From the NCBI RefSeq assembly GCF_020037125.1, contig NZ_JAIQDG010000002.1:372001-436000 (forward strand): DNA of 64,000 nt. The letters run 5' to 3'. The notes below the pieces were generated by a model that saw only the letters and a list, made by a program, of their open reading frames with translations, did no database searches and was not told the DNA's origin. This stretch comes from Myxococcus sp. RHSTA-1-4 (lineage in GTDB: Bacteria > Myxococcota > Myxococcia > Myxococcales > Myxococcaceae). Of this stretch, positions 24,788 through 42,764 are shown piece by piece. The stretch's first letter is position 1. Each line of letters starts with the position of its first letter. The position numbers and the translations under genes are program-made.

Positions 24788-26047
24788 GTGAAGGTCCTGC
24801 TGCTCGGTTCCGGAGGCCGTGAGCACGCGCTCGCGTGGAAGCTGTCCCAGAGCCCCCGGCTCACCCGGCTGCTGTGTGGCCCGGGCAACCCGGGCACCGC
24901 GAAGCTGGCCACCAATGTCCCCGTGCGGCCGGACGTGCCGGAGGAGGTGGTGGCGCTGGCGCGGCGCGAGGCCGTGGACCTGGTGGTGGTGGGGCCGGAG
25001 GCGCCCCTGGTGGCCGGCGTGGCGGACGCGCTGGCCGCGGCGGGCATCCCCTGCTTCGGCCCCGTCCGGGGCGCCGCCCTCATCGAGGGCTCCAAGGCCT
25101 TCGCCAAGGAAATCATGGCCGAGGCGGGCGTGCCCACCGCGGCCTTCCGCACCTTCACGGACGTGAATCAGGCGGAGGCCTACGCGGTGGAGCAGGGCCG
25201 CATCGTCGTGAAGGCGGACGGGCTGGCCGCGGGCAAGGGCGTCATCGTGGCGCATGACGTGGAGGCCGCGCGCGAGGCGGTGCGCGCGGTGGGCGCCATG
25301 GGCTCGGCGGGCCAGACGATGGTCCTGGAGGAGCTGCTGGAGGGCGAGGAGGTCTCCGCCATGGCCCTGTGTGACGGCGAGCGCTACGTGATGCTGCCGC
25401 TGTCCCAGGACCACAAGCGCGTGGGTGACGGGGACACGGGCCCCAACACCGGTGGCATGGGCGCGTACTGCCCGGCCCCGTTCCTGACGGAGGCGCAGCT
25501 CGCCGAGGTGGGGGAGCGCATCGTCGCGCCGACGCTGGCCGTGCTGCGCCGGCGCGGAATTCCGTTCCGGGGCGTGCTGTATGCGGGATTGATGCTCACG
25601 CGCACCGGGCCGAAGGTGCTGGAGTTCAACGCGCGCTTCGGCGACCCCGAGACGCAGGTGTTGATGATGCAGCTCGGCGAGGACCTGCTGCCGCTGGTGG
25701 ACGCGTGCGCGCGCGGGCGGCTGGAGCCCCGGACGCTGAAGACGCACCCGGGCGCGTCGGTGGGCGTGGTGATGGCGGCGCAGGGCTACCCGGACGCGCC
25801 TCGCAAGGGCCAGCCCATTGAAGGGCTGGACGCGGTGCCGGCGGACGCCACGGTGTTCCTGGCCGGTGTGGACGCGAAGGATGGCGCGCTGGTGACGAGC
25901 GGCGGCCGGGTGCTGACGGTGTGCGCGCGGGGCGAGGACCTGGCGCGGGCACGTGAGCGGGCCTACGCGGCGGCGGCGGCCGTGCGCTTCGAGGGCATGC
26001 ACTTCCGCCGGGACATCGGCGCGCGAGGGATGAAGGCGGCGCCGTGA
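24788..26047 (+). CDS. purD: Phosphoribosylamine-glycine ligase
   Basis: 419 residues from a GTG at 24788, preceded by GAGG that overlaps the previous stop; a GTG at 24782 would add two residues. The start VKVLLLGSGGREHALAWKL and the ATP-grasp core (KADGLAAGKGVIVA, ALCDGERYVMLPLSQDHKR, GDTGPNTGGMGAY, FNARFGDPETQ) are diagnostic. It forms glycinamide ribonucleotide in de novo purine synthesis. The length is normal. The last 4 bp (GTGA) overlap the start of lptF, so purine and LPS-transport genes are translationally linked here. Confidence 0.97.
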   Translation: MKVLLLGSGGREHALAWKLSQSPRLTRLLCGPGNPGTAKLATNVPVRPDVPEEVVALARREAVDLVVVGPEAPLVAGVADALAAAGIPCFGPVRGAALIEGSKAFAKEIMAEAGVPTAAFRTFTDVNQAEAYAVEQGRIVVKADGLAAGKGVIVAHDVEAAREAVRAVGAMGSAGQTMVLEELLEGEEVSAMALCDGERYVMLPLSQDHKRVGDGDTGPNTGGMGAYCPAPFLTEAQLAEVGERIVAPTLAVLRRRGIPFRGVLYAGLMLTRTGPKVLEFNARFGDPETQVLMMQLGEDLLPLVDACARGRLEPRTLKTHPGASVGVVMAAQGYPDAPRKGQPIEGLDAVPADATVFLAGVDAKDGALVTSGGRVLTVCARGEDLARARERAYAAAAAVRFEGMHFRRDIGARGMKAAP

Positions 26048-27153
26048 ACCGGATTTCCCGCTACCTGCTCAGGGAGCTGCTGGTGCCGCTCGGGGTGTGG
26101 GTGGCGTTCATGTTCCTGCTCCTGTTCGTGATGCAGTTCCTGCGGGGCACGGAGGTGCTGCTGGGCTCCTCGGTGACGCTGGTGGACCTGGGGCGGCTGA
26201 TTGCCTACCTGTCGCCGCACTTCCTGATGATGGCGCTGCCCATCGCCTTCCTGCTGGCCATCCTCCTGGGGCTGGGGCGGCTGGGCGAGGACCGGGAGCT
26301 CACCGCGCTGCAGGCGCTGGGCGTGGGGCCGATGCGCCTGCTGGCCGCGCCGCTCGGCGTGGCGGTGGCCATCAGCGCGCTGATGCTGCTGATTACCTCC
26401 ACCGCGCAGCCCTGGGGGCTCACCGGCGTGAAGGAGCTGGTGAGCGAGGTCATCCGGAAGAACGTGGTGGGCGACGTGAAGTCCGGCGTCTTCTACGAGG
26501 ACATCAGTGACTTGACGCTGTACGCGGAGCGGGTGTCCCCGGACGGGCGGTGGACGAACGTGCTGCTGCACGACGACCGGGAGGCGAGCGCGCCGCTGCT
26601 GGTGCTGGCGCACCGCGGGCAGGTGGGCGTCAGCGGGCGCGGAGAGGTGCTGCGCTTCGCCCTGGAGGACGGTGAGGTGCACCGCTCCGGGCGGGCGGAC
26701 GAGGACTACAGCGTCATCCACTTCGACAAGTCGGAGATCAGCGTGGGCGTGGGCGTGTCCGCGAGCAAGCGCAGCCGCTTCACCTCCGCGAAGGAGGAGC
26801 TGACGCCCGTGGAGCTGATGCAGGCGGCGAAGGAGGCGGAGGAGCGTGGAGGGGATCCGCGCTCGTTCCGCATGGCGCTGCACAGCCGGCTGGGCAACGC
26901 GCTGGCGCCCATCGCCTTCGCGCTGCTGGGCACGCCGCTGGCCATCGGCCGGCGCCAGTCGGGGCGGGCGTGGGGATACCTGCTGACGCTGGGTGGCTAC
27001 GTCCTCTACTACCTGCTGAGCCGCGCCTTCGAGCAGATGGGCCAGAAGGGGCGGCTGCCGGTGGAGCTGGCGGGACAGCTCGCCAACGTCATCTTCATGC
27101 TGGTGGGCGCGGTGGCGCTGTACCGCGTGAGCCGCTCGGGGACGGTCCGGTGA
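26044..27153 (+). CDS. lptF: LPS export ABC transporter permease LptF
   Basis: 369 residues from the GTG at 26044, which overlaps the purD stop. It begins ISRYLLRELLVPLGVWVAFMFLLLFVMQFL and has the LptF/LptG layout: three N-terminal helices, a periplasmic beta-jellyroll (about 130-270) and three C-terminal helices with the conserved LHSRLGNALAPIAFALLGTPLAI. With LptG and LptB it extracts LPS from the inner membrane. lptB is not in this window. The gene overlaps lptG by 4 bp. Which of the pair is F and which G rests on order and on this one resembling LptF at its N-terminus. Confidence 0.88.
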   Translation: MNRISRYLLRELLVPLGVWVAFMFLLLFVMQFLRGTEVLLGSSVTLVDLGRLIAYLSPHFLMMALPIAFLLAILLGLGRLGEDRELTALQALGVGPMRLLAAPLGVAVAISALMLLITSTAQPWGLTGVKELVSEVIRKNVVGDVKSGVFYEDISDLTLYAERVSPDGRWTNVLLHDDREASAPLLVLAHRGQVGVSGRGEVLRFALEDGEVHRSGRADEDYSVIHFDKSEISVGVGVSASKRSRFTSAKEELTPVELMQAAKEAEERGGDPRSFRMALHSRLGNALAPIAFALLGTPLAIGRRQSGRAWGYLLTLGGYVLYYLLSRAFEQMGQKGRLPVELAGQLANVIFMLVGAVALYRVSRSGTVR

Positions 27154-28265
27154 GGGGCACGCTCTTCGGCTATGTGCTGCGCACGTACCTGCGCTTCGCG
27201 CTCGGTATCCTCCTGGGGCTGGTGGTCATCTTCGTGGTGGTGGACTTCGTGGACCGCGCGAAGTCGTACACGGGGCCCGGCTGGGTGGAGGCCGCCGCGA
27301 AGCTGTACGGCTACAAGGCGCTGATGTCGGTGCAGCAGCTCGGGCCGGCGGCCCTGCTGCTGGCGGCGGGCACGGCGGTGTCCGCGCTGCGAAAGCAGGG
27401 CGAGGTGACGGCCATCCGGGCACTGACGTTCGGCCCGTCCGCGCTGTACGTGCCCATCCTCGTGTGCGCGCTGGCGGCGTGCGTGGGGCTGGTGGCCTTC
27501 GACGAGCTGGTGGCGACGCACGCCGGGCGCCGGGTGGATGAAATCACCACGCAGCGCTTCAACCGCGGAGGCGACTGGCGCATCTACTACACGCCCAAGC
27601 AGTGGTTCCGGCGGGGGGACCACATCTTCTTCCTCCGCTCGGGCAGCGCGCAGGACGGCTTCCGGGACGTGTCCATCTTCACGGTGTCGAAGCAGTTCGA
27701 GCTCTCGCGGCGCCTGGACGCGGCGGAGATGCACTCGGTGGAGGGCACGCGCTGGCGGCTGACGGGCGTGGTGGAGCGCGGCTTCTCCGGCGAGGGGCGC
27801 ACGTCGGTGCGGCAGATGGAGTCGGCCGAGTACGACCTGGGCGTGGCGGCCAACGTCTTCCGCATCCGGCCGGGACGGCCGGAGCAGCTGCGCGTGGAGG
27901 AGCTCCGGGAGCAGATTTCGGCGCGCAAGGAGGTGGGGCTCGCGACGCGCCAGTTCGAGCTCGCGCTGCACAACCGCTTCGCGTACCCCATGGCGGCGCT
28001 GCCCGCGGCGCTGCTGGGCGTGGGCCTGGCGCTGCGCTCGAACCGGCGGGGGCACCTCACCGCGGCCATCATCGAGGGGCTGCTCACGGCGGTGGCCATG
28101 TGGGGGTTGATGGTGGTGTGCCGCACGCTGGTGCTCACGGAGCGGCTGTCCCCGTTCATCGCCGCGTGGATGCCCACCTTCCTGCTGGTGCTGGTGGCGG
28201 GGGCGGTGTGGCTGAGGCGGGAGGGAATGTTGCCGTCGCCACGCCGTTGGCTGGCGGCGAGGTAG
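27150..28265 (+). CDS. lptG: LPS export ABC transporter permease LptG
   Basis: 371 residues from the GTG at 27150 in a GTGA overlap with lptF. The protein begins LFGYVLRTYLRFALGILLGLVVIFVVVDFVDR, the usual LptG start, then helices around GPAALLLAAGTAVSALRKQGEVTAIRALT, a periplasmic beta domain (about 130-260) and three C-terminal helices starting LHNRFAYPMAALPAALLGVGLAL. It partners LptF in the LptB2FG complex that drives LPS towards the outer membrane. The open frame extending upstream inside lptF is not coding. Confidence 0.88.
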   Translation: MRGTLFGYVLRTYLRFALGILLGLVVIFVVVDFVDRAKSYTGPGWVEAAAKLYGYKALMSVQQLGPAALLLAAGTAVSALRKQGEVTAIRALTFGPSALYVPILVCALAACVGLVAFDELVATHAGRRVDEITTQRFNRGGDWRIYYTPKQWFRRGDHIFFLRSGSAQDGFRDVSIFTVSKQFELSRRLDAAEMHSVEGTRWRLTGVVERGFSGEGRTSVRQMESAEYDLGVAANVFRIRPGRPEQLRVEELREQISARKEVGLATRQFELALHNRFAYPMAALPAALLGVGLALRSNRRGHLTAAIIEGLLTAVAMWGLMVVCRTLVLTERLSPFIAAWMPTFLLVLVAGAVWLRREGMLPSPRRWLAAR

Positions 28266-28276
28266 TGGGGTATAGG
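28247..28276 (+). promoter_or_regulatory. Possible internal promoter before the O-antigen ligase gene
   Basis: TTGGCT (28247-28252), 18 bp, TATAGG (28271-28276), lying across the lptG stop. The start site would fall at about the GTG at 28282, implying a leaderless mRNA. Confidence 0.35.
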
Positions 28277-28281
28277 CCACC

Positions 28282-29682
28282 GTGAGGATTCAAGGACGCA
28301 CAGGGCCGACGCACTCCACGGGTCCTCCCGTCAAGACCATGTCGACCTCTTCCTGGCGTGAGCCCCCTGGGGCCTCGGCGCCACCTGATTCCCTCCCGGC
28401 GGCCCCTGCCTCCGAGTCCAGCGCCACACCCCTGACGCACCCTGTGGGGCGGACCACCCGGTGGTCCTGGCCCCTGGCCGCGCTGGTGACGTGGGTGGTG
28501 GGGGTGCAGGTGTCGGAAGCCGTGGCCACGGTGGGGCTCGCTGGCTGCATGTTGTCGGCGCTATGGGCCGCCCGGCGGGCGGGCGGGCCGGCGCTCAAGG
28601 CCGGGCTGAGGAGCTGGTGGCCCCTGGGACTGCTGCTGGGCTGGGCGCTGCTGGCGCCGACGCTCGCGGGACGCCCGCCTTCCGGCAGCGGCGTGGCCCG
28701 GCTGGTGGACTGGGTGGCCATCCCCGCCGCGGTCTGGGCGCTGGGCTCGGTGGGCACGCGAGGGGCACGCGTGCTGCTGTGGGTCGCGGGTGGGGTGCTG
28801 CTGGTGTCGTCGGTGATTGCCGGCCTGCAGCACTTCGGCATCTGGCCGCAGCCGGAGGCGCTCACCGCGCTGATGCCCCTCAAGGTGTCCCTCCTGCGCG
28901 TCTACGAGCCCATCCCCGGCGCGGAGTCGCGCTTCATGGGCGGCGGGCTGCTCTTCCACCGGCTGAAGTTCGCCCACGTCAGCGCGCTGGTCATCCTGGT
29001 GCTGCTGGCCTTCGGGCTGCGCGCCCAGGGCCGGAACCGGGTGCTGGCGCTGGGTGCCGCGGCGGCCGGCCTGGGGGCCGTCATCGCGTTCCCGTATGCG
29101 CGCGCCGCGAGCGCCGCGCTCGTGGCCTCGTGTGTGGCCGTCCTCGTGCTGGGCTCGCCGCACCGGCGGCTGGCACTGCTGCTGGGAGGGCTGCTGGCGG
29201 TGGGGGCGTTGGGCGTCGTGTGGATGAAGCCCACGCTCCGCAACCGCTTCGCCTCCAGCCTCACGCACGAGGGTAGCGGGGACCGGATGATGCTGCTGAA
29301 GGCGGGCGTGGACGCCGTGAAGCTGTATCCGGTGGCGGGCACGGGGGCGGGGCGCTTCCGCGCGGGCGAGTGGGTGGATGCCTCCGCGCCCATTGCCGTG
29401 CGCGAGCAGCGAGGCAAGGCGCACAACCAGCTCCTGAGCGTCGCCGCGGAGCTGGGGCTTCCGGGGCTGGTGTTCTTCCTGGTGCTGCTGGTCTCCGTGG
29501 CCCGGCGCATGACGCTGGCGCACCCCGCGGGCGTCGCCGGGGTGGGGGCGCTGTGCTTCTTCCTCCTGCTGTCCGCGGTGCACGACCCGCTCTTCCAGGC
29601 GCCGTTCTCCATGGCGCTCGTGCTGGCATTCGCCGTGGGCGTGCGGGGCGGCCTCGACGCTTCGGCCTCCCGGAGCGCCTGA
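28282..29682 (+). CDS. waaL: O-antigen ligase family membrane protein
   Basis: 466 residues from the GTG at 28282; an ATG at 28339 is the alternative start, as the first 50 residues are disordered. About ten to twelve hydrophobic helices are visible. The large periplasmic loop near the middle contains EPIPGAESRFMGGGLLFHRLKFAHV and, later, AGTGAGRFRAGEW...AHNQLLSVAAELG, the Wzy_C-type pattern with the conserved H-N in the last third. Such enzymes join O-antigen to lipid A-core or polymerise glycans. The location directly after lptF-lptG and before glycosyltransferases favours ligase. The WaaL/Wzy distinction is not certain from sequence alone. Confidence 0.68.
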   Translation: MRIQGRTGPTHSTGPPVKTMSTSSWREPPGASAPPDSLPAAPASESSATPLTHPVGRTTRWSWPLAALVTWVVGVQVSEAVATVGLAGCMLSALWAARRAGGPALKAGLRSWWPLGLLLGWALLAPTLAGRPPSGSGVARLVDWVAIPAAVWALGSVGTRGARVLLWVAGGVLLVSSVIAGLQHFGIWPQPEALTALMPLKVSLLRVYEPIPGAESRFMGGGLLFHRLKFAHVSALVILVLLAFGLRAQGRNRVLALGAAAAGLGAVIAFPYARAASAALVASCVAVLVLGSPHRRLALLLGGLLAVGALGVVWMKPTLRNRFASSLTHEGSGDRMMLLKAGVDAVKLYPVAGTGAGRFRAGEWVDASAPIAVREQRGKAHNQLLSVAAELGLPGLVFFLVLLVSVARRMTLAHPAGVAGVGALCFFLLLSAVHDPLFQAPFSMALVLAFAVGVRGGLDASASRSA

Positions 29683-29683
29683 C

Positions 29684-31102
29684 ATGGACTCCGCGTGGCC
29701 GCGGAGGGGGCCCGTCGTCGCGGTGCTCGTGCTCGCGGCCTCGCTGGTAGCGGCGCCCTGGGCCGCGCACCTGGATGACGGGGATGCGAACCTCTACACG
29801 GTGGTGGCCCGCAACATGGTGGAGCAGGGGACGTGGCTGAACCCGAGCTACCTCCCCGACGTCTACCCCGAGTTCCGCGAGCACCTGCCCTTCGGCCTGT
29901 GGCCCCAGGTGGCGGCCATCCGCTGGGTGGGGGAGGGCGCGCTGGGGCCGCTGAACGCGTTATGGACGCTGGCCACCGTGGCGCTGGTGGGGTGGCTTGG
30001 AACGCGGCTGTGCGGCGCGCGGGCCGGGCTGCTGGCGATGCTGGTGCTGGCCACGTCGGAGACGTTCTTCGTCTACGGGGGGCGTCCGCGGTTGGACCCG
30101 CTCCTGGTGCTGCTGGGCACGCTGGCGGCGGCGCCGGTGCTGCTCGACGGGCGGAGCCTCCGGGCGTTGTTGCTGGCCTCGGTGGCGGGCTCGGCGGCGG
30201 CGCTCATCAAGGGGCCCTTCGGGCTGTTGCCCATCGTCGCAGCGGGCGCGGCGCGGGGGCTGGCGACGCGCTCGGTGCGGCCGTTCCTCGTGGGAGGCAC
30301 GGCGGCGGTGCTGGCGGCGCTGCCGGTGACGGGCTTCCTGGTGTGGGACCGCTTTGCGGGGGATGGCACCTGGTGGTCGGGGTATGCGGAGCGGCAGTTG
30401 CTCGCGTCGGCGATGGGTACGCGGACGGATGGGAAGCTCGTGTTCTGGTTCCCGTTCCGGAGCGTCGCCAGCCGCTTCTGGCCGGGCCTTCCGCTGGTGT
30501 TGCTGGGGGCGTGGACCGCGGTGCGGCAGCCTCGCGCCGGGCAGGAAGCGCGAGCCCAGGAGCAGGTGGGGCTTCGCATCCTCGCCCTGTTCAGCCTGTT
30601 CGTGTTGCTGGGGCTGTGCCTGCCGGCGCGCAAGCTGTGGAACCACACGCTGGTGGCCTACCCCGGGCTGGCCCTGCTGGCCGGAGCCGCCGCCGCGCCC
30701 TGGGTGGAGCGCCTGCTCCAGGCGCCGCGCCGGAAGCGGGTGGCGGCGAGGGCGCTGATGGGGCTGGCGCTCGTCGTCGCGGTGGCCTCCATGGCGGGGC
30801 TGGGCCGCTACCTGGCGCCACCTCCGTGCGTCGCCTCGCGCGAGTTCGCGGCGGAGTTCGACAGGCTCGCGCCCGGAACGCGCGTGCCCGTGGTGGCGGC
30901 GACGCCCGCGTGGATCCTCATCGCGGCCATCGCGGCGGAGCGGCGGCTCGCGCCACAGCCGGTGGACCAGCTCTCCGTGCTGGAGGGACACGAGGCACGG
31001 CTCGCGCTCGTGGAGGAACGCGTGCTCCAGACGTCCATGCCCGCGGGGTGGCACGAGGTCCGGCGGGCGCGCGACTGGGTCCTCCTGGTTCGAGACCGCT
31101 GA
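29684..31102 (+). CDS. ArnT/PMT-like family 39 membrane glycosyltransferase
   Basis: 472 residues, starting 1 bp after the ligase stop. It has about ten to eleven hydrophobic helices. The first periplasmic loop holds the acidic pair typical of the GT-C superfamily (HLDDGDANLYTVVARNMVEQG), followed by a conserved amphipathic segment (LPDVYPEFREHLPFGLWP). GT39/83 enzymes such as ArnT move sugars from undecaprenyl-phosphate donors onto lipid A or other envelope acceptors. The periplasmic C-terminal domain is short (LAPGTRVPVVAATPAWIL). It is probably co-transcribed with the ligase gene. Donor and acceptor are unknown. Confidence 0.75.
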   Translation: MDSAWPRRGPVVAVLVLAASLVAAPWAAHLDDGDANLYTVVARNMVEQGTWLNPSYLPDVYPEFREHLPFGLWPQVAAIRWVGEGALGPLNALWTLATVALVGWLGTRLCGARAGLLAMLVLATSETFFVYGGRPRLDPLLVLLGTLAAAPVLLDGRSLRALLLASVAGSAAALIKGPFGLLPIVAAGAARGLATRSVRPFLVGGTAAVLAALPVTGFLVWDRFAGDGTWWSGYAERQLLASAMGTRTDGKLVFWFPFRSVASRFWPGLPLVLLGAWTAVRQPRAGQEARAQEQVGLRILALFSLFVLLGLCLPARKLWNHTLVAYPGLALLAGAAAAPWVERLLQAPRRKRVAARALMGLALVVAVASMAGLGRYLAPPPCVASREFAAEFDRLAPGTRVPVVAATPAWILIAAIAAERRLAPQPVDQLSVLEGHEARLALVEERVLQTSMPAGWHEVRRARDWVLLVRDR

Positions 31103-31126
31103 GCGGCGCGAGCCCGGGCCGTGGCG

Positions 31127-32224
31127 TCAGCGGGAGCGCTCGGGGGGCGCTTCCAGCACCCTCCGGTACACCGCGAGCGTGCGCCGCGCGCAGTCGTCCC
31201 AGGTGAAGCGCGCGGCCCGCTCACGGCCCAATTCAATCAGCTCGCCGCGCAGCACCTCGTCGCGCAGCAGGCGCAGCGTGGTCTCCCGCCAGAGCGCCGC
31301 ATCGTCCGGAGGCAGCCGCAGCGCCGCGCCGCCCACCACCTCCGGCAGCGCCGTCGTGTCCGCCACAATCACGGGGCAGCCCGAGGCCATGGCCTCCAGC
31401 GCCGGCAGCCCGAAGCCCTCGTACTTCGACGGCAGCAGCAGCGCCGCCGCCGCTCCGTAGAACAGCGGCATCTCCGCCTCGGGCAGCTCCTCCAGGTCCA
31501 CCACGTTCTCATGGAGGCCCAACTCGTGCGCCACCGCGCCCCTGCCGGCGAGCAGCACGATGGGCACCGGCAGCTCCGCCGCGAAGTGCTTCAGCATCGC
31601 CAGGTTCTTGAACGGCTTCGCGTTGCCCACCGCCGCCACGTACCGCGCGGGCAGCCCGTGCCGCTCGCGGAACGCCTTCGCCTCGGCGGGCGTCGGCGGC
31701 TGGAAGCTCGCGTCCACCCCGTTGTGAATCACCTGCAGGCGGTACGGCGACAGCTTGAGGTACTTCGCCAGCTCCTCGCGCGAGAACTCCGACACCGTCA
31801 CCAGCGCCGCCGCCTGCCTCGCCCGGGGGCCCACCACCAGCCGGTAGTACAGCGCCTGCGCCGGCGTGTACTGCTCCGCCAGTGCCAGGTGGTTGGCGTC
31901 ATGCAGCGTGGCCACCAGCCGCCCGTCCCAGAACCGAGGCAGGGAGAATGACGTGGCGTGGAAGACGTCCGGCCTCACCCGGCTCAGGTCCGCCGGCAGG
32001 GTGGGTTGCTCCAACGGCGAGAGGAATCCCGCGAGCGCGCGGTGCTGGGGCATGGGCGGAGTGAGGTCGCCCAGCCCGGCCGGCAGCCCCTCGGGCGGCA
32101 CCAGGGCGGTGAAGCGCAGGTCGGGCGCGAGCGCCGGCATCCGCCGCGCCAGCTCCAGGGCGTACCGGGCAATCCCGTGCAGCCGGCCGCGCACCATGCG
32201 CAGGTCGAGGAGGACGTGAGCCAC
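31127..32224 (-). CDS. GT4-family glycosyltransferase
   Basis: 365 residues from a GTG at 32224 (VAHVLLDLRMVRGRLHGIARYALEL); a longer frame upstream runs into the divergent promoter and lacks support. The GT-B fold is indicated by the N-terminal G-I-A-R-Y loop, VTVSEFSREELAKYL, VGNAKPFKNL and the donor-site motif KYEGFGLPALEAMASGCPVIV, whose E-x7-E pair is characteristic of retaining GT4 enzymes (NDP-sugar donors). There is no membrane segment, so it should act on lipid-linked acceptors at the cytoplasmic face. It converges on the GT39 gene and diverges from the next glycosyltransferase. Confidence 0.85.
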   Translation of the reverse strand: MAHVLLDLRMVRGRLHGIARYALELARRMPALAPDLRFTALVPPEGLPAGLGDLTPPMPQHRALAGFLSPLEQPTLPADLSRVRPDVFHATSFSLPRFWDGRLVATLHDANHLALAEQYTPAQALYYRLVVGPRARQAAALVTVSEFSREELAKYLKLSPYRLQVIHNGVDASFQPPTPAEAKAFRERHGLPARYVAAVGNAKPFKNLAMLKHFAAELPVPIVLLAGRGAVAHELGLHENVVDLEELPEAEMPLFYGAAAALLLPSKYEGFGLPALEAMASGCPVIVADTTALPEVVGGAALRLPPDDAALWRETTLRLLRDEVLRGELIELGRERAARFTWDDCARRTLAVYRRVLEAPPERSR

Positions 32225-32326
32225 GGTCCACGGCCTACCACACGCGCGGCCCTCATGGGGGACAGGCAGGCGGGCGGGCCTTCTGACTTTCGGCACGGCC
32301 CGCTCCGGGTGCTAGAAGCCGCTTCC

Positions 32327-33469
32327 GTGAAGGTCGCCCTGGTCCACGATTGGCTCGTCACCCACCGCGGGGGGGAGCGTGTCCTCGACGCGCTCTGCGA
32401 GGTCCTCCCGGACGCGGACATCTACACGCTCGTCCACAAGCCCGGCAGCCAGTCCCCGGCCATCGAGTCCCGCCGCATCTTCACCTCCTTCCTCCAGCGC
32501 ATCCCCGGCATCCACTCGCGCTACCGGCACTTCCTGCCGCTGATGCCGCGCGCCATCGAGGCCCTGCGCCTCCAGGGCCACTACGACCTGGTCCTCTCCT
32601 CCAGCCACTGCGTCGCCAAGGGGCTGCGCGCCCCGCCGGGCACCCCGCACCTCAGCTACGTGCACGCGCCCATGCGGTACATGTGGGATTTGTTCGATGA
32701 CTACTTCGGCCCGGGCCGCGCGCACCTGCCCGTGCGCGCCGCCGCCCACGCCGTGCGGCCGTGGCTCCAGCGGTGGGACCGGGAGTCGGCCTCGCGCGTG
32801 GACCGCTTCGTCGCCAACAGCCACCACATCGCCGCGAAGATTGGCCGCTTCTGGGGCCGTGAGGCCTCCGTCGTCCACCCGCCCGTGGCCCTGGAGCGCT
32901 TCGCCAGCGTTCCGCTCGAGGGAGGAGGGCGGGGCGGCTACTTCCTGTGGCTCGGCGCCTTTGCCCCCTACAAGCGGCTGGACGTGGCGCTGGAGGCCTT
33001 CCGCGAGCTGGGCGCGCCGCTGTGGGTGGTGGGCACGGGCCAGGAGGCCTCGCGCCTCATGTCCGGTCCGGTGCCGCCCCACATCCGCTTCCTCGGCAAC
33101 GTCCCGGACGATGCGCTGCCGGGCCTCTACCGCGAGGCCCGCGCGCTCATCTTCACGCCCGAGGAGGACTTCGGCATCACCCCGCTGGAGGCCCAGGCCA
33201 CCGGCCGCCCCGTCATCGCCTACGGCAAGGGGGGCGCGCTGGAGACTGTCACCTCGCGCACCGGCCTCTTCTTCTCCGAGCAGACTCCCGCCGCGCTCGC
33301 CGCCGCCGTGCGCCAGTTCGAGGCCTGGGAGCCCGGCTTCCGCCCCGAGGACGCCCGCTCGCAGGCCGAGCGCTTCAGCCGCGCCGCCTTCCAGCGAGCC
33401 ATGCTGGCCGAGGTGGACGCCCTGCTTCGCGTGGGGAAACAATCCACACCCCGGACCGCGGGGGTGTGA
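32327..33469 (+). CDS. GT4-family glycosyltransferase (second)
   Basis: 380 residues from a GTG at 32327 (VKVALVHDWLVTHRGGERVLDAL), the standard start for this subgroup. Motifs: the GGER loop, YVHAPMRYMWDLFDDYFG, FVANSHHIAAKI, FLWLGAFAPYKRLDVALEAF and the donor motif PEEDFGITPLEAQATGRPVIAYGKGGALETV. Mannosyl- and galactosyltransferases of O-antigen and capsule loci share the EDFGI motif. It diverges from the previous glycosyltransferase over about 100 bp, which probably holds promoters for both. The Shine-Dalgarno is weak. Confidence 0.85.
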   Translation: MKVALVHDWLVTHRGGERVLDALCEVLPDADIYTLVHKPGSQSPAIESRRIFTSFLQRIPGIHSRYRHFLPLMPRAIEALRLQGHYDLVLSSSHCVAKGLRAPPGTPHLSYVHAPMRYMWDLFDDYFGPGRAHLPVRAAAHAVRPWLQRWDRESASRVDRFVANSHHIAAKIGRFWGREASVVHPPVALERFASVPLEGGGRGGYFLWLGAFAPYKRLDVALEAFRELGAPLWVVGTGQEASRLMSGPVPPHIRFLGNVPDDALPGLYREARALIFTPEEDFGITPLEAQATGRPVIAYGKGGALETVTSRTGLFFSEQTPAALAAAVRQFEAWEPGFRPEDARSQAERFSRAAFQRAMLAEVDALLRVGKQSTPRTAGV

Positions 33470-33553
33470 CTTCGCTGTCACTCCCCTCTCTGTCTTCCGT
33501 GGCCCACTTCTGTCCACATGAGGACGCTGTGGAGGAGGGGTCAAGGCAACCCG

Positions 33554-33583
33554 TTGGTTTCACAAGTTTTTCCGTGTTAGGAG
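33554..33583 (+). promoter_or_regulatory. Candidate promoter of the sugar-phosphate transferase gene
   Basis: TTGGTT (33554-33559), 18 bp, and an extended -10 TGTTAGGAG (TAGGAG at 33578-33583), in an AT-richer patch. It resembles the purH -10. The leader would be about 100 nt. Confidence 0.45.
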
Positions 33584-33687
33584 ACGCGGCCGTCACACGG
33601 TGTTGGGCAGGCCACGTGCCCGTCAGTATGGGGTGCGAGTCTTGCATGGGGGTGGCCGCCCGTTGACCAGGCTACAGGGGTGCCTCG

Positions 33688-35082
33688 GTGTTCAGTCGTC
33701 TCCAGCGTTTCTACACATCCATCAAGGTCGTCGCGGACATGGGGATGCTCACGGTGGCGTTCGCGCTCGCGTACGTCACGCGCTTCTCCGGAATCGTTCC
33801 CGTCACCGAGGGGATTCCTCCCTGGGAAGACACGCTGATTTCGCTGTTGATGGTGCTCGTCATCTTCCCGGTGACGTTCAAGCAGTCGCGCCTGTACGCC
33901 ACCAACCGCTCGCGCACGAACACGGGCGAGGTGTTCGAGGTCTTCAAGTCCACCATCACCGCCACGCTCATCCTCGTCGCGGCGACGTACTTCGCGCGTG
34001 AGCGCTACTCGCGCCTCACGCTGGTCATCTTCGTCGCCTACGCCTTCGTGCTGGTGACGTGCAGCCGGCTGGCGTTCCGCTACGTGCTGAGTGAGATCCG
34101 CCGTCGCGGCCACAACCTCAAGTCCATCCTCGTCATCGGCGCGGGGGAGCTGGGGCAGCGGGTCATCGAGACGGTGGAGGGCCACCGCGAGCTGGGCTTC
34201 CGGGTGACGGGCGTGCTCACGCTGCGGCCGGAGAAGGTGGGCCAGTACGTGGGCGGCGTGCGTGTCATCGGCCACGTGGACTCGGTGAACGAGGTTCTGG
34301 ATGCGCAGCCGGTGGACCAGGTCATCCTCGCGCTGCCCCTGGAGGACCAGGCGCACGTGAAGCGGCTGATGGAGCAGCTCGCGCTGCGCACGGTGGACGT
34401 GCGCGTCGTTCCGGACCTGTACCAGTACATCACCCTCTACGGCGGCCTGGAGGAGTTCGGCGGGTTGCCCATCATCCGCCTCCAGGGCGACCCCATGGAG
34501 GGCTGGAGCCGGGTGGCCAAGCGGGCCTTCGACATCCTCTTCTCGCTGCTGGCCATCCTCGTCACCTCGCCGCTGATGCTGGCCACCGCGCTGGCGGTGC
34601 GGCTCACCAGCCGCGGGCCCGTGCTCTACCGCCAGGAGCGCATGGGTATGGACGGGCGCACCTTCCCCATCCTCAAGTTCCGCACCATGCGCGTGGACGC
34701 GGAGCACTGCGGCGCGATGATGGCGTCCCCCGAGGACCCGCGCCGCACGCCCATCGGCACGTTCCTGCGCAAGTACTCGCTGGACGAGCTGCCGCAGTTC
34801 TTCAACGTGCTCCTGGGCGACATGAGCCTAGTGGGCCCGCGCCCCGAGCGCCCCGTCTTCATCGAGGAATTCAAGCGGCAGATTCCCCGCTACCACCTGC
34901 GCCACAAGGTGAAGGCGGGCATCACCGGCTGGGCGCAGATCAACGGCCTGCGCGGTCAGACGTCCATCCAGAAGCGCATCGAGTACGACCTGTACTACAT
35001 CGAGAACTGGTCGCTGCTGATGGACCTGAAGATTCTCGTGCGCACGGCGCTGGGCGGCTTCCTCTCGAAGAACGCGTACTGA
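33688..35082 (+). CDS. Undecaprenyl-phosphate sugar-1-phosphate transferase (WbaP/WcaJ/ExoE type)
   Basis: 464 residues from a GTG at 33688 with AGGGG upstream. Four N-terminal helices are followed by a Rossmann-like domain (SILVIGAGELGQRVIETVEGH, about 146-270), a fifth helix (AFDILFSLLAILVTSPLMLATALAVRL) and the catalytic bacterial sugar-transferase domain with QERMGMDGRTFPILKFRTM, the DELPQ pair and VGPRPERPVF. It transfers a hexose-1-phosphate to undecaprenyl phosphate, starting repeat-unit synthesis. Next to an O-antigen ligase and glycosyltransferases it is the likely first enzyme of the same O-antigen pathway. From memory, M. xanthus has WaaL and WbaP homologues close together in such a locus. 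The sugar cannot be assigned. Confidence 0.88.
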   Translation: MFSRLQRFYTSIKVVADMGMLTVAFALAYVTRFSGIVPVTEGIPPWEDTLISLLMVLVIFPVTFKQSRLYATNRSRTNTGEVFEVFKSTITATLILVAATYFARERYSRLTLVIFVAYAFVLVTCSRLAFRYVLSEIRRRGHNLKSILVIGAGELGQRVIETVEGHRELGFRVTGVLTLRPEKVGQYVGGVRVIGHVDSVNEVLDAQPVDQVILALPLEDQAHVKRLMEQLALRTVDVRVVPDLYQYITLYGGLEEFGGLPIIRLQGDPMEGWSRVAKRAFDILFSLLAILVTSPLMLATALAVRLTSRGPVLYRQERMGMDGRTFPILKFRTMRVDAEHCGAMMASPEDPRRTPIGTFLRKYSLDELPQFFNVLLGDMSLVGPRPERPVFIEEFKRQIPRYHLRHKVKAGITGWAQINGLRGQTSIQKRIEYDLYYIENWSLLMDLKILVRTALGGFLSKNAY

Positions 35083-35639: not shown

Positions 35640-37574
35640 CTACTGGATGCTCCACACCACGGTGCCGCTGCAAGAGTTGCTGCTGTAGCAGCCGGCGCGG
35701 ATCTGCAGCGTGCCGGTGGCCGTCGCCGTGTACGTCAGGCTGGAGCCCACGCCGCTGCACGCGTCGTCGTTGGCGGCCGCCTGCGTGGCGCCGTTGAAGA
35801 GGCGCAGGTACGTGTCACCGGTGAACGAGGCGCCCGTCAGGCCGCAGGTGGCCACGGTGATGCTCTGCCCCGCGGTGATGCTGACGTCCCGGTTGGTGGT
35901 GTTCTGCTGCGCGCTGTTGGTGTTGCTGGCGCTGAAGGTGAACGAGCCACCGGTGGGCGGCGGAGGCGGGGTGCCGTTGGTGATTTCCCACACCACGGTG
36001 CCGCCGCAGCTCCCGCTGGAGTAGCAGCCGGCGCGGACCTCGAAGTCGCCGCTGGTGGTGGCCGTGTAGGTGATGCTGGAGCCGCGGCCGCCGCAGGCGT
36101 CGTCGTTGGAGGCCACCTCGACGGCGGAGGGGCTGAACAGGCGCAGCCAGGTGTCACCGGTGAGGGTGGTGCCCGTCAGGCCGCAGGTGGCCACGGTGAG
36201 CTTCTGGCCGGCGGTGAGGGCAATCTTCTTGTTGGTGGTGTTCTGCTGCGCGCTGTTGGTGTTGCTGGCCGTGTAGGTGAAGGAGTTGGCCGGAGGCGGG
36301 GGCGGCGGCGGAGGCGGCTCGCCGGTGCCATTGGGGTTCGGGCAGCCGGCGGCGGGCAGGGCACACGTGGGCAGGCTGGTGCCCAGGTGGCTGATGACGG
36401 CCTGGATGGGCACGCCGCGGTTGGGGCAGTTGGCACAGTGGTGCAGCGCCACCACCAGGTTGTCGCCGTGGCCGATGACGGGCGAGCCCGACGAGCCGCC
36501 CTGCGTGTCCGCGAAGTAGCCCACGTCGTTGGGGCCACCCGTCTGGCAGGAGGCCTCCGTCAGGCTGTAGACCTCGGCGAAGCCGGACTGGTCCCGGCTG
36601 TCCGTGGACGTGACGGCGATCTTCTTGCCGTAGCCGGCCGGGTGCTGCGGGATGAAGATGCGCTCGTCCACCACGGCGCCGGTGGAGCGCAGCTGCAGGT
36701 AGCCGTAGGTGGCGGTCGGGTTCTGCGACAGCTGCACCAGCGCGTAGTCACGCGGGGCGTCCACCGCCACCAGCGTGCCGCCGGCGATGACGTTGCCCGG
36801 GCAGCCGAACCAGCTCGCGCAGCTCGTGGTGCAGGTCGCGCCCTCGGCCATGAACTCGAAGTTGGTGTTCGCCGCGTCGCTGGCGGTGCCGATGCAGTGC
36901 TGGTTCGTCATCAGGTGGCCCTGGCTGCCCACGAGCCAGCCGGTGCACGCGCCGGAGCCGTTGATGAGCAGGCGCGCCACCGGACGGGCGCGGCCGTAGA
37001 TGGCGGGGTCGCTGGAGGCGTAGCAGGGCGCCCAGCCGGAGTCGTCCGCGCCGCACAGGGCCTCGTTGAAGCTGGCGAAGCCCATCTCCTGGTTGGAGAA
37101 GCCGCGGGCGTACCGGTCGATGGAGTAGCCGTGCTTGTTGAGGATGCCGCGCCGGCCGGAGTTGTCCCGGCTGTGCAGCTCGATGATGGCCGTGTCGCCG
37201 GGGATGTGGATGGCCCAGAAGCCGTCGCGGGCGGCGGGGTGCGAGTTGTCGTAGCTCCACGAGCGCGAGCCGTCCGGCGAGCGCACCACGACGAAGTCTC
37301 CGTCCTCCAGGTCCAGCCGCTCGAAGTGCGGGGCGATGTAGGCAGCGCCGGGGTGGTTGATGACGTCGGAGTGCACGGGGCCGCTCTCCGAGCGCAGCTC
37401 CGTGGTGGCGTACGGGTGCGCCGTCTCGAAGCGCCGGAAGACGTCCTCGCCGACCTTGGTGGGCCCCTGCGAGGCGGCGGAGGGCTCCGCCTTGCATACG
37501 GGCGCCGAGGCCAGCGCGGCCGGCGCCGCCAGGGACAGCGCTGCGGCGAGACATGCGAGCTGGATGCGTTTCAT
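35640..37574 (-). CDS. Secreted trypsin-like serine protease with two C-terminal beta domains
   Basis: 644 residues from the ATG at 37574 (GGAG upstream). A Sec signal peptide (about 1-23, cleavage after ALAS-A) and a propeptide-like region (to about 195) precede the protease domain. The triad is visible: His226 in TNQHC, Asp276 in PRDYALV and Ser362 in GGSSGSP, with several disulphide-capable Cys. A poly-Pro linker leads to two domains of about 100 residues, each starting SFT(Y/F)xASNTNSAQQNTTN and containing ATCGLTG, NDDAC and RAGCYSS; these resemble PPC-type domains. The duplicated domains probably bind substrate or the cell surface. The gene diverges from the MshEN gene. Confidence 0.9.
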   Translation of the reverse strand: MKRIQLACLAAALSLAAPAALASAPVCKAEPSAASQGPTKVGEDVFRRFETAHPYATTELRSESGPVHSDVINHPGAAYIAPHFERLDLEDGDFVVVRSPDGSRSWSYDNSHPAARDGFWAIHIPGDTAIIELHSRDNSGRRGILNKHGYSIDRYARGFSNQEMGFASFNEALCGADDSGWAPCYASSDPAIYGRARPVARLLINGSGACTGWLVGSQGHLMTNQHCIGTASDAANTNFEFMAEGATCTTSCASWFGCPGNVIAGGTLVAVDAPRDYALVQLSQNPTATYGYLQLRSTGAVVDERIFIPQHPAGYGKKIAVTSTDSRDQSGFAEVYSLTEASCQTGGPNDVGYFADTQGGSSGSPVIGHGDNLVVALHHCANCPNRGVPIQAVISHLGTSLPTCALPAAGCPNPNGTGEPPPPPPPPPANSFTYTASNTNSAQQNTTNKKIALTAGQKLTVATCGLTGTTLTGDTWLRLFSPSAVEVASNDDACGGRGSSITYTATTSGDFEVRAGCYSSGSCGGTVVWEITNGTPPPPPTGGSFTFSASNTNSAQQNTTNRDVSITAGQSITVATCGLTGASFTGDTYLRLFNGATQAAANDDACSGVGSSLTYTATATGTLQIRAGCYSSNSCSGTVVWSIQ

Positions 37575-37928: not shown

Positions 37929-40900
37929 ATGGCCGAAAAGCTTGGAGCGATCCTGGTCCGCAAGGGCCTCATCACGCAGGCGCAGCTCGACGAGGCCCTC
38001 AAGGCCCAGCTCATCTACGGTGGGCGGTTGGGCACCAACCTCGTCGAACTGGACATCCTCGACATCGACACACTGGCCATGGTGCTGGGGGAGCAGTCTC
38101 GCTACCCGGTGGCCCAGGAAGCGGACTTCGAGGCGGTTCCGGATGCGACGCTGGCGTTGTTGCCGGCCGCGCTGGCGGAGAAGCACCTCGCCTTCCCGCT
38201 GGGGCAGGAGGGACGGCGGCTCAAGGTGGCGATGGTGAACCCGCAGGAGCTGCGGGACACGGATGCGCTCAGCTTCGCGACCGGGTTGCGCATCGTCCCG
38301 TATGTCGCGCCCGAGCTGCGCGTGTATCACTTCCTGGCGAAGCGCTACGACATCAAGCGGGAGGCGCGGTACATCCGGCTGGAGCCCGGAAGGCGTCCGG
38401 CTCCGGTCCAGGCCATGGCGGTTCCCGCGGGCGCCGCGCGAGCACCGGCGGCGGCGCCCGCCGTGCCTCCCGCGCCCGTGCGTCCCGCCCCGGACGCCGG
38501 GGGAATGTTCGGCGGGCTCGCGCCGGGCCAGTTCCTCAGTGACGATTCGGACGACGAAGGCACCGATACGGGCACGGCACCGCCCGCGAATGTGCTGCCT
38601 CCGCCCGCGCCGCCGCAGCTCGCCGCCATGGACGCGTCGCGAGGCGCGCAGGTGCCCGGGGCCACGAGGCCCGCGGCTCCACCCCGGCTCGCGCCCGCCG
38701 TGGCGGAGCCGCCCCGGCTTGCCCCTCCCGTCCAGGCGGAGGAAATCGACGTGCTGGAGGCGGACGTGCTGGAGGAGGTCCCGGTGGTCACGGGCGTCGG
38801 CTCCGAGCCTCCGGTGTTGGGGGCCGTCGGGGAGCGCGTGCCCGTGGGAGGGCGTCCCGGCTCACCGCCTCGCCTCACGCCGACGGAGATGCCGCGTGTG
38901 GCGGTGCCTCCGCAGCTGGCTTCCACCGAGGGGGCTCGGGCCATGCCGCCGCAGCTCGGGCAGGCGCAGGCCGCGCCGCCACGGCTGGCCGCTTCGGTTC
39001 CGGCGGAGGCGCCGGTGCCCACGGGCGGCGCGCAGCCGCCGGGCATGGTGGCGCGTCAGGCTGGAGGTCCGGGCGCGATGCCGCCGCAGCCTCCGGTGAT
39101 GAATCGGGCCCCGCAGGCTCCGGGCATGGCCACCGCGCCGACGCCGCCGCCCGTGATGGGGCAGTCCCGTCCCATGCCGCCGCAGGGTGGGCCCGCCGGG
39201 GCGGAAGGGCCGCAGGGACCTGCCGCGTCCATGCCGCCGGGGATGATGGCGAGACCTGCCCCGGCGCAGGCGATGGCGGGGGCCGCCGCGGTGCCGCCCG
39301 GAATGATGGGCGCCTCGGGGGCACGGCCTCCTTCGGCGACGGGAATCCCCACTGTGCCGGGGCCTCAGGGGGCTGTTCCGCCGGGCATGGCGCGTCCGCC
39401 GACGCCGCCGCCGGGTGCCGCGCAGCCGCAACCCATGCCGCCGCAGGGCGCTGCGCCGCGGCCTCCTGCTGGAGCGCCGCAGCCTCCGGCGATGGCGCGG
39501 CCCATGCCTCCGCAGGCAGCGGCGCCACAACCTCCCGGCATGGCTCCCAGGGGCATGTCGCCCACGATGGCGCAGGGTGGGGCGATGGCTGCTCACGCCG
39601 GGGGCGCGGTGCCTGCGCAGGCGCCCGCGAACGCGCCCATGGCGACTCCGTCCGGGGCAATGCCTGCTCATGCGGCCGGAGCTGTCTCCTCGCATGCGCC
39701 CGCGAACGCGCCCATGGCGACTCCGTCCGGGGCGATGCCTGCACATGCGGCTGGGGCTGTCCCGCCGCAGGCTCCCGCGCACCCGGCCACGCCCCCTCCG
39801 TCCGGAGGGATGCCTGCTCAGGCGTCCGGGCCTGTACCTCCGCAGCCATTGGCGAATCCGGCCGCGGTGTCGCCTCAGGGAGCGAGGCCCCCGCAGCAGC
39901 CGGGAGCGCCGTCGGGGCCCATGCCCGCGAACGCGCCCATGACGCCTCCGCCGGGAGCGATGTCTCAGGGGGCCCGTCCCCCCGCGATGCCGGGGGCTCC
40001 CATGCCTCCGGGCGCCGCGAGGCCGCAGATGCCGCCGGGACAGATGATGCCTGCGGGCGCGGGTGGTCCGCCCATGCCAGGCCAGGCGAGGCCCATGGCG
40101 CCGGGCATGATGCCGGGCGCTCCGGTGCCTCCGGGCGCCCCGATGGGCGCGCAGCCGGGAATGCCTCCCCGCCAGGGGCCGCCTCCGGGCGGGCCGATTC
40201 CCCCTGCCGGTGCTCGCGGGCCCGGCATGCCTCCGGGGATGCATGGCCCGGGAATGCCGCAGGGCGGTCCGCCCATGCCCGCGCGTCCGTCGCAGTCCGT
40301 TCCCGCGGTGGGCATGGCACCTGCCGCGCAGCCTCGGCCCGGAGAGGCCCCGCAGGCCCGTGTGTCCGGTCCTCCGATGGCGGCGCCTCCGGGGATGTCC
40401 CAGGTTCCGCCGGGGATGTCGCCCGCGGCTTTGAGGCCTCACGGCCATGCGCCGTCGACCCCGTCCCAGGCCGTTCCGGTTCCAGCGCAGCCACCTGCTC
40501 CCGCTTCGGAGGCGCAGGCACCGTCGTCCAGCGTGGACCTCGCCGCCCCCGTACTGTCCCTTGCGACCGGGGACGTGGCGGAGCCAACGCATGTCACGGG
40601 CGACCAGCGCCCGGGCCAGTCGCATCCCGCGGAGGCGGGTACTGCGCCGGTGCTCGAGGCCGGGAAGGACGCTGTCGTCGAGCAGGCAGCGCCCCACCGT
40701 GACGAGTCCAGCCCGGTTGCGGGGACTGCGCCGGTGCTCGAGGCCGGGAAGGACGCTGTCGTCGAGCAGGCAGAGCCCCACCGTGACGAGTCCAGCCCGG
40801 TTGGGAGTACTGCGCCGGTGCTCGAGGCCGGGAAGGACGCTGTCGTCGAGCAGGCAGAGCCCCACCGTGACGAGGCCAGCCCGGTTGGGCCGTCGGACGC

Positions 40901-42764
40901 CGGAACCCCCGGCACCGCGCGCACGGAACCGGAGGCAGCGGCTCCCACCGGCGAACAGCCGCACGCGTTGAACGCCGAGTCCGCCTCCGCGCCCCTCACA
41001 CCAGCGGTAGAGGTTCTCGAGGCCAGCGCCGAGCCCGTGATGACGAACCCGGCGGGGCAGGGGGCTGAATCCTCTGCCACCGAGACCGCGCCCGTCGCGA
41101 TGGACGCGGAATCGTCTGCCCGGACGGACTCGGGGGCCGACACCGATGCTGCCTCCGTGACGACTCGGATGGCAGTCCTCGACATAGCGGTCGAGCCCGC
41201 CAGCGTGACCGAGGATGCGGCGCCGGTGTTGCCGGATGCCATGAATCCAGCGGCCGTCACTCAGGGCGAGCCACGTGAAGAGCTCGCGACTGTCGACCTG
41301 TCCGCGGAGCCGAGCGAGCAACTCGACGTCGCCGCGGACAGCGAGCCACGGATGGAGACAGAGCGGACCACGGTCTACGGCTTCGCTCTGCCCGCGGATG
41401 AGCCTGGCGAGGACGACCCCAGTCTCTCCACGGAGTCGGGCACTTCGGTCGAGGCAGGTGCTCCAGCATCCGTGCTGGTTCTGGACGCGGAGGTTCTCGG
41501 CGAAGCGCAGGCCGAAGCCGCACCGTCGCTCCAGGCGGGGGCTGATGCGGACAGCTTGGCGTCCACCTCCGACGCAGGTACGCCGCCAGCCGATGCGCAG
41601 CCGGTGATGCAGCAGGGCGAAGGACTCTCGGACTCCCGTGCCACCGCGGAGGCCGAGCCCTCCTCTTCCGAGCACCCCGCTGCGACGGGTGCCGAGGGAG
41701 CGCCCCAGCCGGACACGACGCCCCCTCCATCGGTCGTTGCCGCCTCCGAGGACGCAGTCACGGCCCGCGCTGCCGCGGAGCCCGGGTCCACCTCCGAGAG
41801 CACCGCTCAGGACTCCGCGCCCGCCGCCACGCTCGGCGCGGACGCGGCGTCCGTGTCTGTCGCCGCGAGTCCCGTGCAGGCCTCGGCCCAGGAGTCCGAG
41901 CCCACCTCCGACACCGCCACTCCAGAGGCGCCGGAGCCGGAGCAGGCCGCTCCGCGAGCCCCCATCGAGCTCGACGACCTTCCCGCCTCCTCCGGCGACA
42001 CGATGGAGCTCGCGTCGACGTGGGAGTTCGTGGGCTGGCAGGGCCACGAGGGCAATGGGACCATCGGCCACACCGCGGAGACGACCTGGGCGGATCGGGC
42101 CGTGGACCTCGACGGGCCGGCCGTCGCCGCCGTGCCAGCGGAGCCTCCGGCGTCCGAGGTGCCACTGGCCTCGGCGTGGGACTTCATCCAGCAGCCCTGG
42201 CAGCCTCCGGCGGGGCCCTCCGAGCTCGTCACCTCGCTCCTGGCCGCGGCCAGCGCTTCCACGGAGACGCCGTCCGGCGGGCCGTCGGTGACGGCGGAGC
42301 AGGTGCTCTCGGCGCTGGACGCCGTGGGGACGCAGGGCACGCTCGGCAAGGTGCTGCTCGCGTACTGCGCGGGACGCTTCCGGCGCGCGTTCCTGCTCGG
42401 CGAGAGCCTCGGCCTCGCGCGGGTGGGGCACGCCTGGGGCCCGGGCAGTGACAGCCCGGCGGTGTCCGCGCTCAAGGTCGATCTCGAGGCCCCGTCGCTC
42501 CTCACCACGGCGATGGCGGGCACCGGCCCGAGCGTCTTCAACGCTCCGAGCTGCGCACAGGACGAGGCCATCTTCTCCGCGCTCGGCGAGACCTCCTCGC
42601 GGTTGCTGGTCGTCGCCCTCCGGAGCCGGGGCCGTCCCGTCGCCTTCGTCGTGGCGGACTCCGGCTCGGAGCCCGTCGACAGCGCGCTCCTCGAGGACCT
42701 CGCCCGCGTCGTCGACAAGGCGTCCGAAGCCTACGACCGCCTCCCCGCGTACCGGGGCGAATGA
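37929..42764 (+). CDS. Giant protein: N-terminal MshEN (GspE_N-like) domain, long Pro/Met/Ala linker, C-terminal GAF-like domain
   Basis: 1611 residues from the ATG at 37929 (GAGGGG just before). Residues 1-150 match the MshEN/GspE-N domain of type II secretion and type IV pilus ATPases: LGAILVRKGLITQAQLDEALKAQ, a second helical half, then LGQEGRRLKVAMVNPQEL, but no ATPase follows. Residues about 165-870 are low-complexity Pro/Met/Ala/Gly/Gln with 25-residue repeats. Residues about 903-987 are three 28-residue repeats. An acidic region runs to about 1400. The last 180 residues look globular (VLSALDAVGTQGTLGKVLLAYCAG, RLLVVALRSRGRPVAFVVAD) and resemble a GAF fold. MshEN domains can bind c-di-GMP. 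The role is unknown. Confidence 0.75.
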   Translation: MAEKLGAILVRKGLITQAQLDEALKAQLIYGGRLGTNLVELDILDIDTLAMVLGEQSRYPVAQEADFEAVPDATLALLPAALAEKHLAFPLGQEGRRLKVAMVNPQELRDTDALSFATGLRIVPYVAPELRVYHFLAKRYDIKREARYIRLEPGRRPAPVQAMAVPAGAARAPAAAPAVPPAPVRPAPDAGGMFGGLAPGQFLSDDSDDEGTDTGTAPPANVLPPPAPPQLAAMDASRGAQVPGATRPAAPPRLAPAVAEPPRLAPPVQAEEIDVLEADVLEEVPVVTGVGSEPPVLGAVGERVPVGGRPGSPPRLTPTEMPRVAVPPQLASTEGARAMPPQLGQAQAAPPRLAASVPAEAPVPTGGAQPPGMVARQAGGPGAMPPQPPVMNRAPQAPGMATAPTPPPVMGQSRPMPPQGGPAGAEGPQGPAASMPPGMMARPAPAQAMAGAAAVPPGMMGASGARPPSATGIPTVPGPQGAVPPGMARPPTPPPGAAQPQPMPPQGAAPRPPAGAPQPPAMARPMPPQAAAPQPPGMAPRGMSPTMAQGGAMAAHAGGAVPAQAPANAPMATPSGAMPAHAAGAVSSHAPANAPMATPSGAMPAHAAGAVPPQAPAHPATPPPSGGMPAQASGPVPPQPLANPAAVSPQGARPPQQPGAPSGPMPANAPMTPPPGAMSQGARPPAMPGAPMPPGAARPQMPPGQMMPAGAGGPPMPGQARPMAPGMMPGAPVPPGAPMGAQPGMPPRQGPPPGGPIPPAGARGPGMPPGMHGPGMPQGGPPMPARPSQSVPAVGMAPAAQPRPGEAPQARVSGPPMAAPPGMSQVPPGMSPAALRPHGHAPSTPSQAVPVPAQPPAPASEAQAPSSSVDLAAPVLSLATGDVAEPTHVTGDQRPGQSHPAEAGTAPVLEAGKDAVVEQAAPHRDESSPVAGTAPVLEAGKDAVVEQAEPHRDESSPVGSTAPVLEAGKDAVVEQAEPHRDEASPVGPSDAGTPGTARTEPEAAAPTGEQPHALNAESASAPLTPAVEVLEASAEPVMTNPAGQGAESSATETAPVAMDAESSARTDSGADTDAASVTTRMAVLDIAVEPASVTEDAAPVLPDAMNPAAVTQGEPREELATVDLSAEPSEQLDVAADSEPRMETERTTVYGFALPADEPGEDDPSLSTESGTSVEAGAPASVLVLDAEVLGEAQAEAAPSLQAGADADSLASTSDAGTPPADAQPVMQQGEGLSDSRATAEAEPSSSEHPAATGAEGAPQPDTTPPPSVVAASEDAVTARAAAEPGSTSESTAQDSAPAATLGADAASVSVAASPVQASAQESEPTSDTATPEAPEPEQAAPRAPIELDDLPASSGDTMELASTWEFVGWQGHEGNGTIGHTAETTWADRAVDLDGPAVAAVPAEPPASEVPLASAWDFIQQPWQPPAGPSELVTSLLAAASASTETPSGGPSVTAEQVLSALDAVGTQGTLGKVLLAYCAGRFRRAFLLGESLGLARVGHAWGPGSDSPAVSALKVDLEAPSLLTTAMAGTGPSVFNAPSCAQDEAIFSALGETSSRLLVVALRSRGRPVAFVVADSGSEPVDSALLEDLARVVDKASEAYDRLPAYRGE
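39621..39770 (+). repeat. 75-bp coding repeats in the proline-rich linker
   Basis: Two units with a 75-bp period (starting 39621 and 39696) encode APANAPMATPSGAMPAHAAG and are nearly identical over about 60 bp. More diverged units follow on the 3' side. Confidence 0.75.
40638..40889 (+). repeat. Three 84-bp tandem coding repeats
   Basis: Three consecutive 84-bp units encode TAPVLEAGKDAVVEQA then (A/E)PHRDE(S/A)SPV. They differ at only a few bases, so the array expanded recently and is a candidate for copy-number variation between strains. Confidence 0.9.

Follow-up and report, generated by a model that had tools for sequence, protein, structure and literature searches.

A long-linker branch of a phylum-wide MshEN-linker-GAF protein family carries a conserved tandem tryptophan motif

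MshEN receptors and the predicted c-di-GMP site

In myxobacteria, c-di-GMP controls motility and development, and most myxobacterial MshEN proteins have no assigned role. In Vibrio cholerae MshE and other MshEN receptors, two motifs of 24 residues each, five residues apart, precede a C-terminal subdomain, and a relaxed form of the motif has also been described (PMC5013675). An extended consensus allows R, K or L at position 1 of motif I, and a lysine at this position goes with higher affinity in the GSPII-B domain of Thermus thermophilus PilF and in related domains (PMC11731258). PilF carries three GSPII domains on its extension ATPase (PMC11731258), but fusions of MshEN to REC, HD-GYP, CheA and kinases have been published as well (PMC5013675). 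Up to 22 MshEN domains (Wang et al. 2016, PMC5013675) and 17 MshEN proteins (PMC8844925) have been counted in Myxococcus xanthus; for one of them, MXAN_7500, neither binding nor importance is known (PMC8844925). The M. xanthus orthologue of the protein described here (L082) is presumably one member of this set, and we found no functional study of it. The main texts of the papers searched describe neither this protein nor an MshEN-GAF family.

The gene lies in the window, i.e. the whole 64,000-nucleotide stretch of DNA analysed, which belongs to an 11.24 Mb genome of the Myxococcaceae whose nearest named relatives are Pyxidicoccus and Myxococcus. It encodes a protein with the domain order MshEN, linker, tandem Trp motif and GAF. 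The ORF and the parts of its N-terminal domain are as follows:

37929..42764, + strand: whole ORF, 1611 residues plus stop codon; start set by conservation
37938..38009, + strand: c-di-GMP motif I, residues 4-27, KLGAILVRKGLITQAQLDEALKAQ; fits the extended consensus, which allows R/K/L at position 1
38025..38096, + strand: c-di-GMP motif II, residues 33-56, RLGTNLVELDILDIDTLAMVLGEQ; sole departure D for G at position 10
38097..38363, + strand: MshEN C-terminal subdomain, residues 57-145 (PF05157, residues 59-144; Pfam)

The MAEKLG-type start is common to 39/39 orthologous rows of the alignment, with conservation beginning exactly at 37929, so we consider this start correct despite an alternative in-frame ATG upstream at 37794. 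The codon-position pattern against the orthologues exhibits a third-position excess in the N-terminal, motif and GAF parts, which identifies the ORF as a selected coding gene. A chance high-GC ORF is ruled out by this excess and by the conservation of the ends and the motif, and the antisense ORFs that overlap the gene are composition artefacts.

Residues 4-145 form an MshEN domain according to profile searches in Pfam (PF05157, 7e-15, 55.2 bits, cut-off 23.1) and NCBIfam (NF053729, 'cyclic di-GMP-binding domain, MshE-related', residues 4-56, 3e-13, 49.2 bits, cut-off 38), and its closest sequence matches in the PDB are PilF, PilB and MshE. As originally predicted, no ATPase is attached: no ATPase profile of Pfam or NCBIfam is matched over the 1611 residues, MshEN being the only Pfam match, which rules out a missed ATPase domain. 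The T2SSE ATPase domain is absent after MshEN, and the NCBIfam type_IV_pilB match covers residues 4-145 only. The two motifs and the spacer are present, and the key Leu, Gly and Gln contacts are kept in the orthologues, with the exception of D42. Over the 39 rows, motif I is almost invariant, whereas motif II keeps R33, L34, G35, L49 (or V), L53 and mostly Q56, has D or E in place of the position-10 G in 34 rows, and has its last Gln replaced by M or L in nine. As both motifs are essentially intact, the domain is predicted to bind c-di-GMP through them. Compared with V. cholerae MshE, this protein lacks the ATPase, exhibits D for G at motif II position 10 and opens motif I with a lysine, which it shares, in place of arginine, with the GSPII-B domain of PilF, where this residue is linked to very high affinity (PMC11731258). 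AlphaFold2 models of the domain from eight sequences exhibit a four-helix part at residues 1-56 (block means 54-91), with low confidence beyond.

The MshEN domain of this protein had been described as an orphan, which was too strong. Its own genome encodes 16 MshEN domains, at least nine of them in proteins without an ATPase match (this protein, L002, L005, L006, L007, which is the gene of L101, L010, L011, L012, and L014, an HD-domain protein). Given these proteins and the published non-ATPase fusions (PMC5013675), an MshEN domain without ATPase is not unusual here.

Linker, tandem tryptophan motif and GAF fold

The remainder of the protein comprises a long linker, a short conserved block and a globular C-terminal domain:

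38382..41957, + strand: Pro/Ala/Gly-rich linker without Trp, residues 152-1343 (composition, alignment)
39579..39845, + strand: 25-residue tandem repeat, 75 bp x 3.6 copies (tandem-repeat analysis)
40635..40887, + strand: 28-residue tandem repeat, 84 bp x 3.0 copies, 96% matches (tandem-repeat analysis)
41958..42218, + strand: conserved, apparently unfolded block, residues 1344-1430 (PIELDDL...WADRAVDLDG...WQP; conservation, pLDDT below 50)
42003..42041, + strand: Trp motif copy 1, residues 1359-1371, MELASTWEFVGWQ (conservation, Trp positions)
42159..42203, + strand: Trp motif copy 2, residues 1411-1425, VPLASAWDFIQQPWQ (conservation, Trp positions)
42282..42749, + strand: GAF-fold domain, residues 1452-1607 (AlphaFold2, Foldseek, profile comparison)

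The composition of the linker (21% A, 20% P and 10% G, counted over residues 151-1341) and both repeats agree with the disordered-type linker with 25- and 28-residue repeats that had been described. Its sequence is 60-61% identical to that of the nearest relatives and 35-43% identical to that of more distant species. Linker length differs widely between and within genera, with whole frames of 613-2594 codons, and is roughly 250 residues or more in all long-clade members read.

The linker drifts, whereas the tandem Trp motif that follows it is conserved to the same degree as the folded domains. This motif is a new element, which the original prediction had overlooked. The block at residues 1344-1430 is strongly conserved in ten Myxococcus and Pyxidicoccus sequences and carries five of the six Trp residues of the protein, in two motif copies of the pattern LAxxW[ED]F..WQ, reading LAS(T/A)W(E/D)F(V/I)..WQ, and at one position between them. 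Its predicted confidence (AlphaFold2) is below 50, consistent with disorder. The motif is near-invariant inside the genus and kept across eight genera; the pair is retained in g8 and g9, which have no GAF, g2 has an expanded set of three or more copies of the motif (LAEPWEMAQWQP, VAAAWEFIQWQQP, LAQPWEYAGWQAP), and g3 and g7 carry a degenerate form. In the same genome, a DNA pattern scan recovered this locus and one match of uncertain frame, and a protein search returned no other Trp-motif protein above noise. These features suggest that the pair could be a linear docking motif for a putative partner.

The C-terminal domain is predicted to adopt a GAF fold, in line with the GAF-like tail proposed earlier. 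The AlphaFold2 model of this region is a GAF fold with pLDDT block means of about 71-90 at residues ~1454-1603. Foldseek with this model returned 107 PDB matches at E<=0.001 (E 1.9e-5), and the best structural match is to 3oov_A (Z 16.2, rmsd 2.9 over 149 residues). The fold became visible only through the structural model: the Pfam GAF profile does not match the C-terminus at E<=1, a PDB sequence profile search with the alignment of the compact GAF domains described below returned nothing at E<=10, and a compact homologue matches GAF_2 at 0.0017, under the curated cut-off.

Relatives in the Myxococcota

The N- and C-terminal domains are conserved together. A comparison of frame listings places them in one open frame of 613-2594 codons in 49 genomes from five genera of the Myxococcaceae (25 in g1, 12 in g6, six in g3, four in g7 and two in g5), a count that includes G060, whose MshEN domain is split by a frameshift. 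In g2, g8 and g9, the N-terminal domain is kept (58-71% identical in the loci read) in a gene without GAF.

A compact family exhibits the identical order of N-terminal domain, linker and GAF in about 365-600 codons across the Myxococcota. It comprises a paralogue in the same genome (L101, a 472-codon frame), frames of mostly 390-800 codons in related genera, and relatives of 365-522 codons outside the Myxococcaceae (L132-L135), where long-type or intermediate forms are also found (L130, 1805-codon frame; L131, 577). The compact GAF tail is present in 164 of the 195 Myxococcota genomes searched, and the GAF groups of the long and compact forms align with an hhalign probability of 96.8 (E 3e-10, 152 columns). 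The MshEN domains of the compact proteins (L101, L097, L099, L100, L102, and the more distant L132-L136) are about 38-47% identical to that of our protein. The two forms differ in that the compact proteins have mostly a short linker, no tandem Trp motif and other gene neighbours. In the N-domain tree, the compact and long forms separate with 100/100 support on either side. We conclude that this protein represents the long-linker branch of a phylum-wide MshEN-linker-GAF family. The statement that no described example is known was thus too strong, as non-ATPase MshEN fusions are published and the compact family has the same domain order.

Since the compact sister group has GAF, one or two losses best explain its absence from g8/g9, which form one clade in the same tree (support 91/92), and from g2. 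The GAF-less orthologues of g8 and g9 (L086, L087, L089, L090) exhibit disordered-looking C-terminal tails with repeated KYG-containing peptides, e.g. TTTAKYGT and STGKYGI.

Gene neighbourhood and possible function

The gene follows a surface-glycan cluster (window 26044-35082) comprising LptF, LptG, a Wzy_C/O-antigen ligase, glycosyltransferases and a WcaJ-type transferase. The features closest to it are:

31958..33469, + strand: family 4 glycosyltransferase of the synteny block, with an uncertain start codon
33688..35082, + strand: WcaJ-type undecaprenyl-phosphate glucose phosphotransferase (WcaJ_sugtrans, 517 bits, cut-off 410.75)
35640..37574, - strand: trypsin-like protease carrying two PPC domains; separates the WcaJ-type gene from the MshEN gene

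The identity of the transferase as EpsZ was rejected (178.8 bits, cut-off 800), so the cluster differs from the EPS locus described in PMC7484181. Seven of the eight genera examined (g1, g3, g5, g6, g7, g8 and g9) have a WcaJ-type gene upstream in the same orientation; none was found in g2, nor beside L088, L130 and L131. The gap to the MshEN gene, read from the coordinates, is often about 60-200 bp. Several Myxococcus species carry the protease gene in between, whereas Pyxidicoccus caerfyrddinensis (L077) and the other genera examined do not. As this gene is on the opposite strand, the WcaJ-type and MshEN genes are not co-transcribed in Myxococcus. In g7, where no nrdJ (ribonucleotide reductase) gene was found downstream, the WcaJ-type gene is retained. 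No such neighbour was found in g2 or, outside the Myxococcaceae, beside L130 and L131; the association may therefore reflect inherited synteny, and the neighbourhood is possibly a lineage-limited pointer to surface glycans. The compact paralogue adjoins a HAMP-HisKA-REC hybrid histidine kinase and a PEGA Ser/Thr kinase, which is consistent with a signalling family.

Based on these observations, we tentatively favour, with a probability of about 0.45, a cytoplasmic c-di-GMP effector or adaptor that recruits a partner through its tandem Trp motif, possibly for surface-polysaccharide production. The MshEN domain, predicted from its sequence to bind c-di-GMP, would change the surface with which it docks on a target upon binding. 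The long disordered linker would allow the two ends to reach separate places, the tandem motif near the C-terminus may dock the partner, and the GAF domain may dimerise or bind a second ligand. The pathway acted on could be surface-polysaccharide production, a step less certain than the others, which is proposed because most genera have a WcaJ-type priming transferase encoded ahead of the gene in the same orientation. Taken alone, this glycan target is weaker than the effector/adaptor reading as a whole. A narrower version, in which MshEN sensor, disordered chain and tandem Trp motif, with or without GAF, form a c-di-GMP-gated flexible tether that gathers or controls the enzyme starting a surface polysaccharide, appears unlikely. 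The original prediction of a tether between a sensor and another machine is plausible with regard to the partner, but the tethered end is not necessarily GAF, as the strongest conservation among candidate docking sites is that of the Trp motif, and this motif is retained in the genera that lost GAF.

The protein could also share the function of its compact paralogue, as a small c-di-GMP adaptor of a kinase pathway, with the linker a neutral spacer grown by slippage. The kinases beside the paralogue point in this direction, and so do the very variable frame lengths, the recent DNA repeats and a compact-clade member (L104:5259-7673) whose linker has been expanded by repeats in parallel to the long clade, to an 805-codon frame. 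However, the conserved Trp block was not seen in compact sequences and is thus specific to the long clade, whose linker never falls below roughly 250 residues in the members read. We therefore regard this explanation as possible but doubtful.

Two further explanations concern the MshEN domain itself. The substitutions at motif II position 10 and at the last Gln would fit a domain that has lost ligand binding, leaving a c-di-GMP-independent scaffold or polarity factor, and such a loss is known from XpsE/GspE (PMC5013675). Nevertheless, XpsE changed eight key residues (PMC5013675), whereas the other Leu, Gly and Gln contacts are kept here, which makes such a loss rather improbable. A regulatory accessory role in type IV pili or type II secretion, in which the domain would imitate that of PilB/GspE or compete with it, would suit its nearest PDB matches and the control of type IV pili by c-di-GMP in M. 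xanthus (PMC8316039). Against this, no pil or gsp gene is found among the identified neighbours and MshEN occurs with many unrelated domains (PMC5013675), so we consider this role decidedly improbable.

With regard to the favoured effector/adaptor reading, the analysis defines a phylum-wide MshEN-GAF family and, within it, a long-tether branch with a conserved candidate linear docking motif. Together with the nearby glycan-priming enzyme, this points to concrete targets: one domain, one motif and one gene. If a tether does control a polysaccharide-starting enzyme, c-di-GMP would act on glycan synthesis in a novel way.

Two assemblies deserve comment. In G060 (G060:C1:5116851-5117299), the MshEN domain is spread over two frames (181 and 2594 codons), owing to a frameshift or a sequencing error. 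An entry titled 'Comamonas sp. KCTC 72670' (L085, BNCN01000003.1) carries a whole Myxococcus-type locus and groups beside M. xanthus in the N-domain tree; this assembly is probably mislabelled or contaminated.
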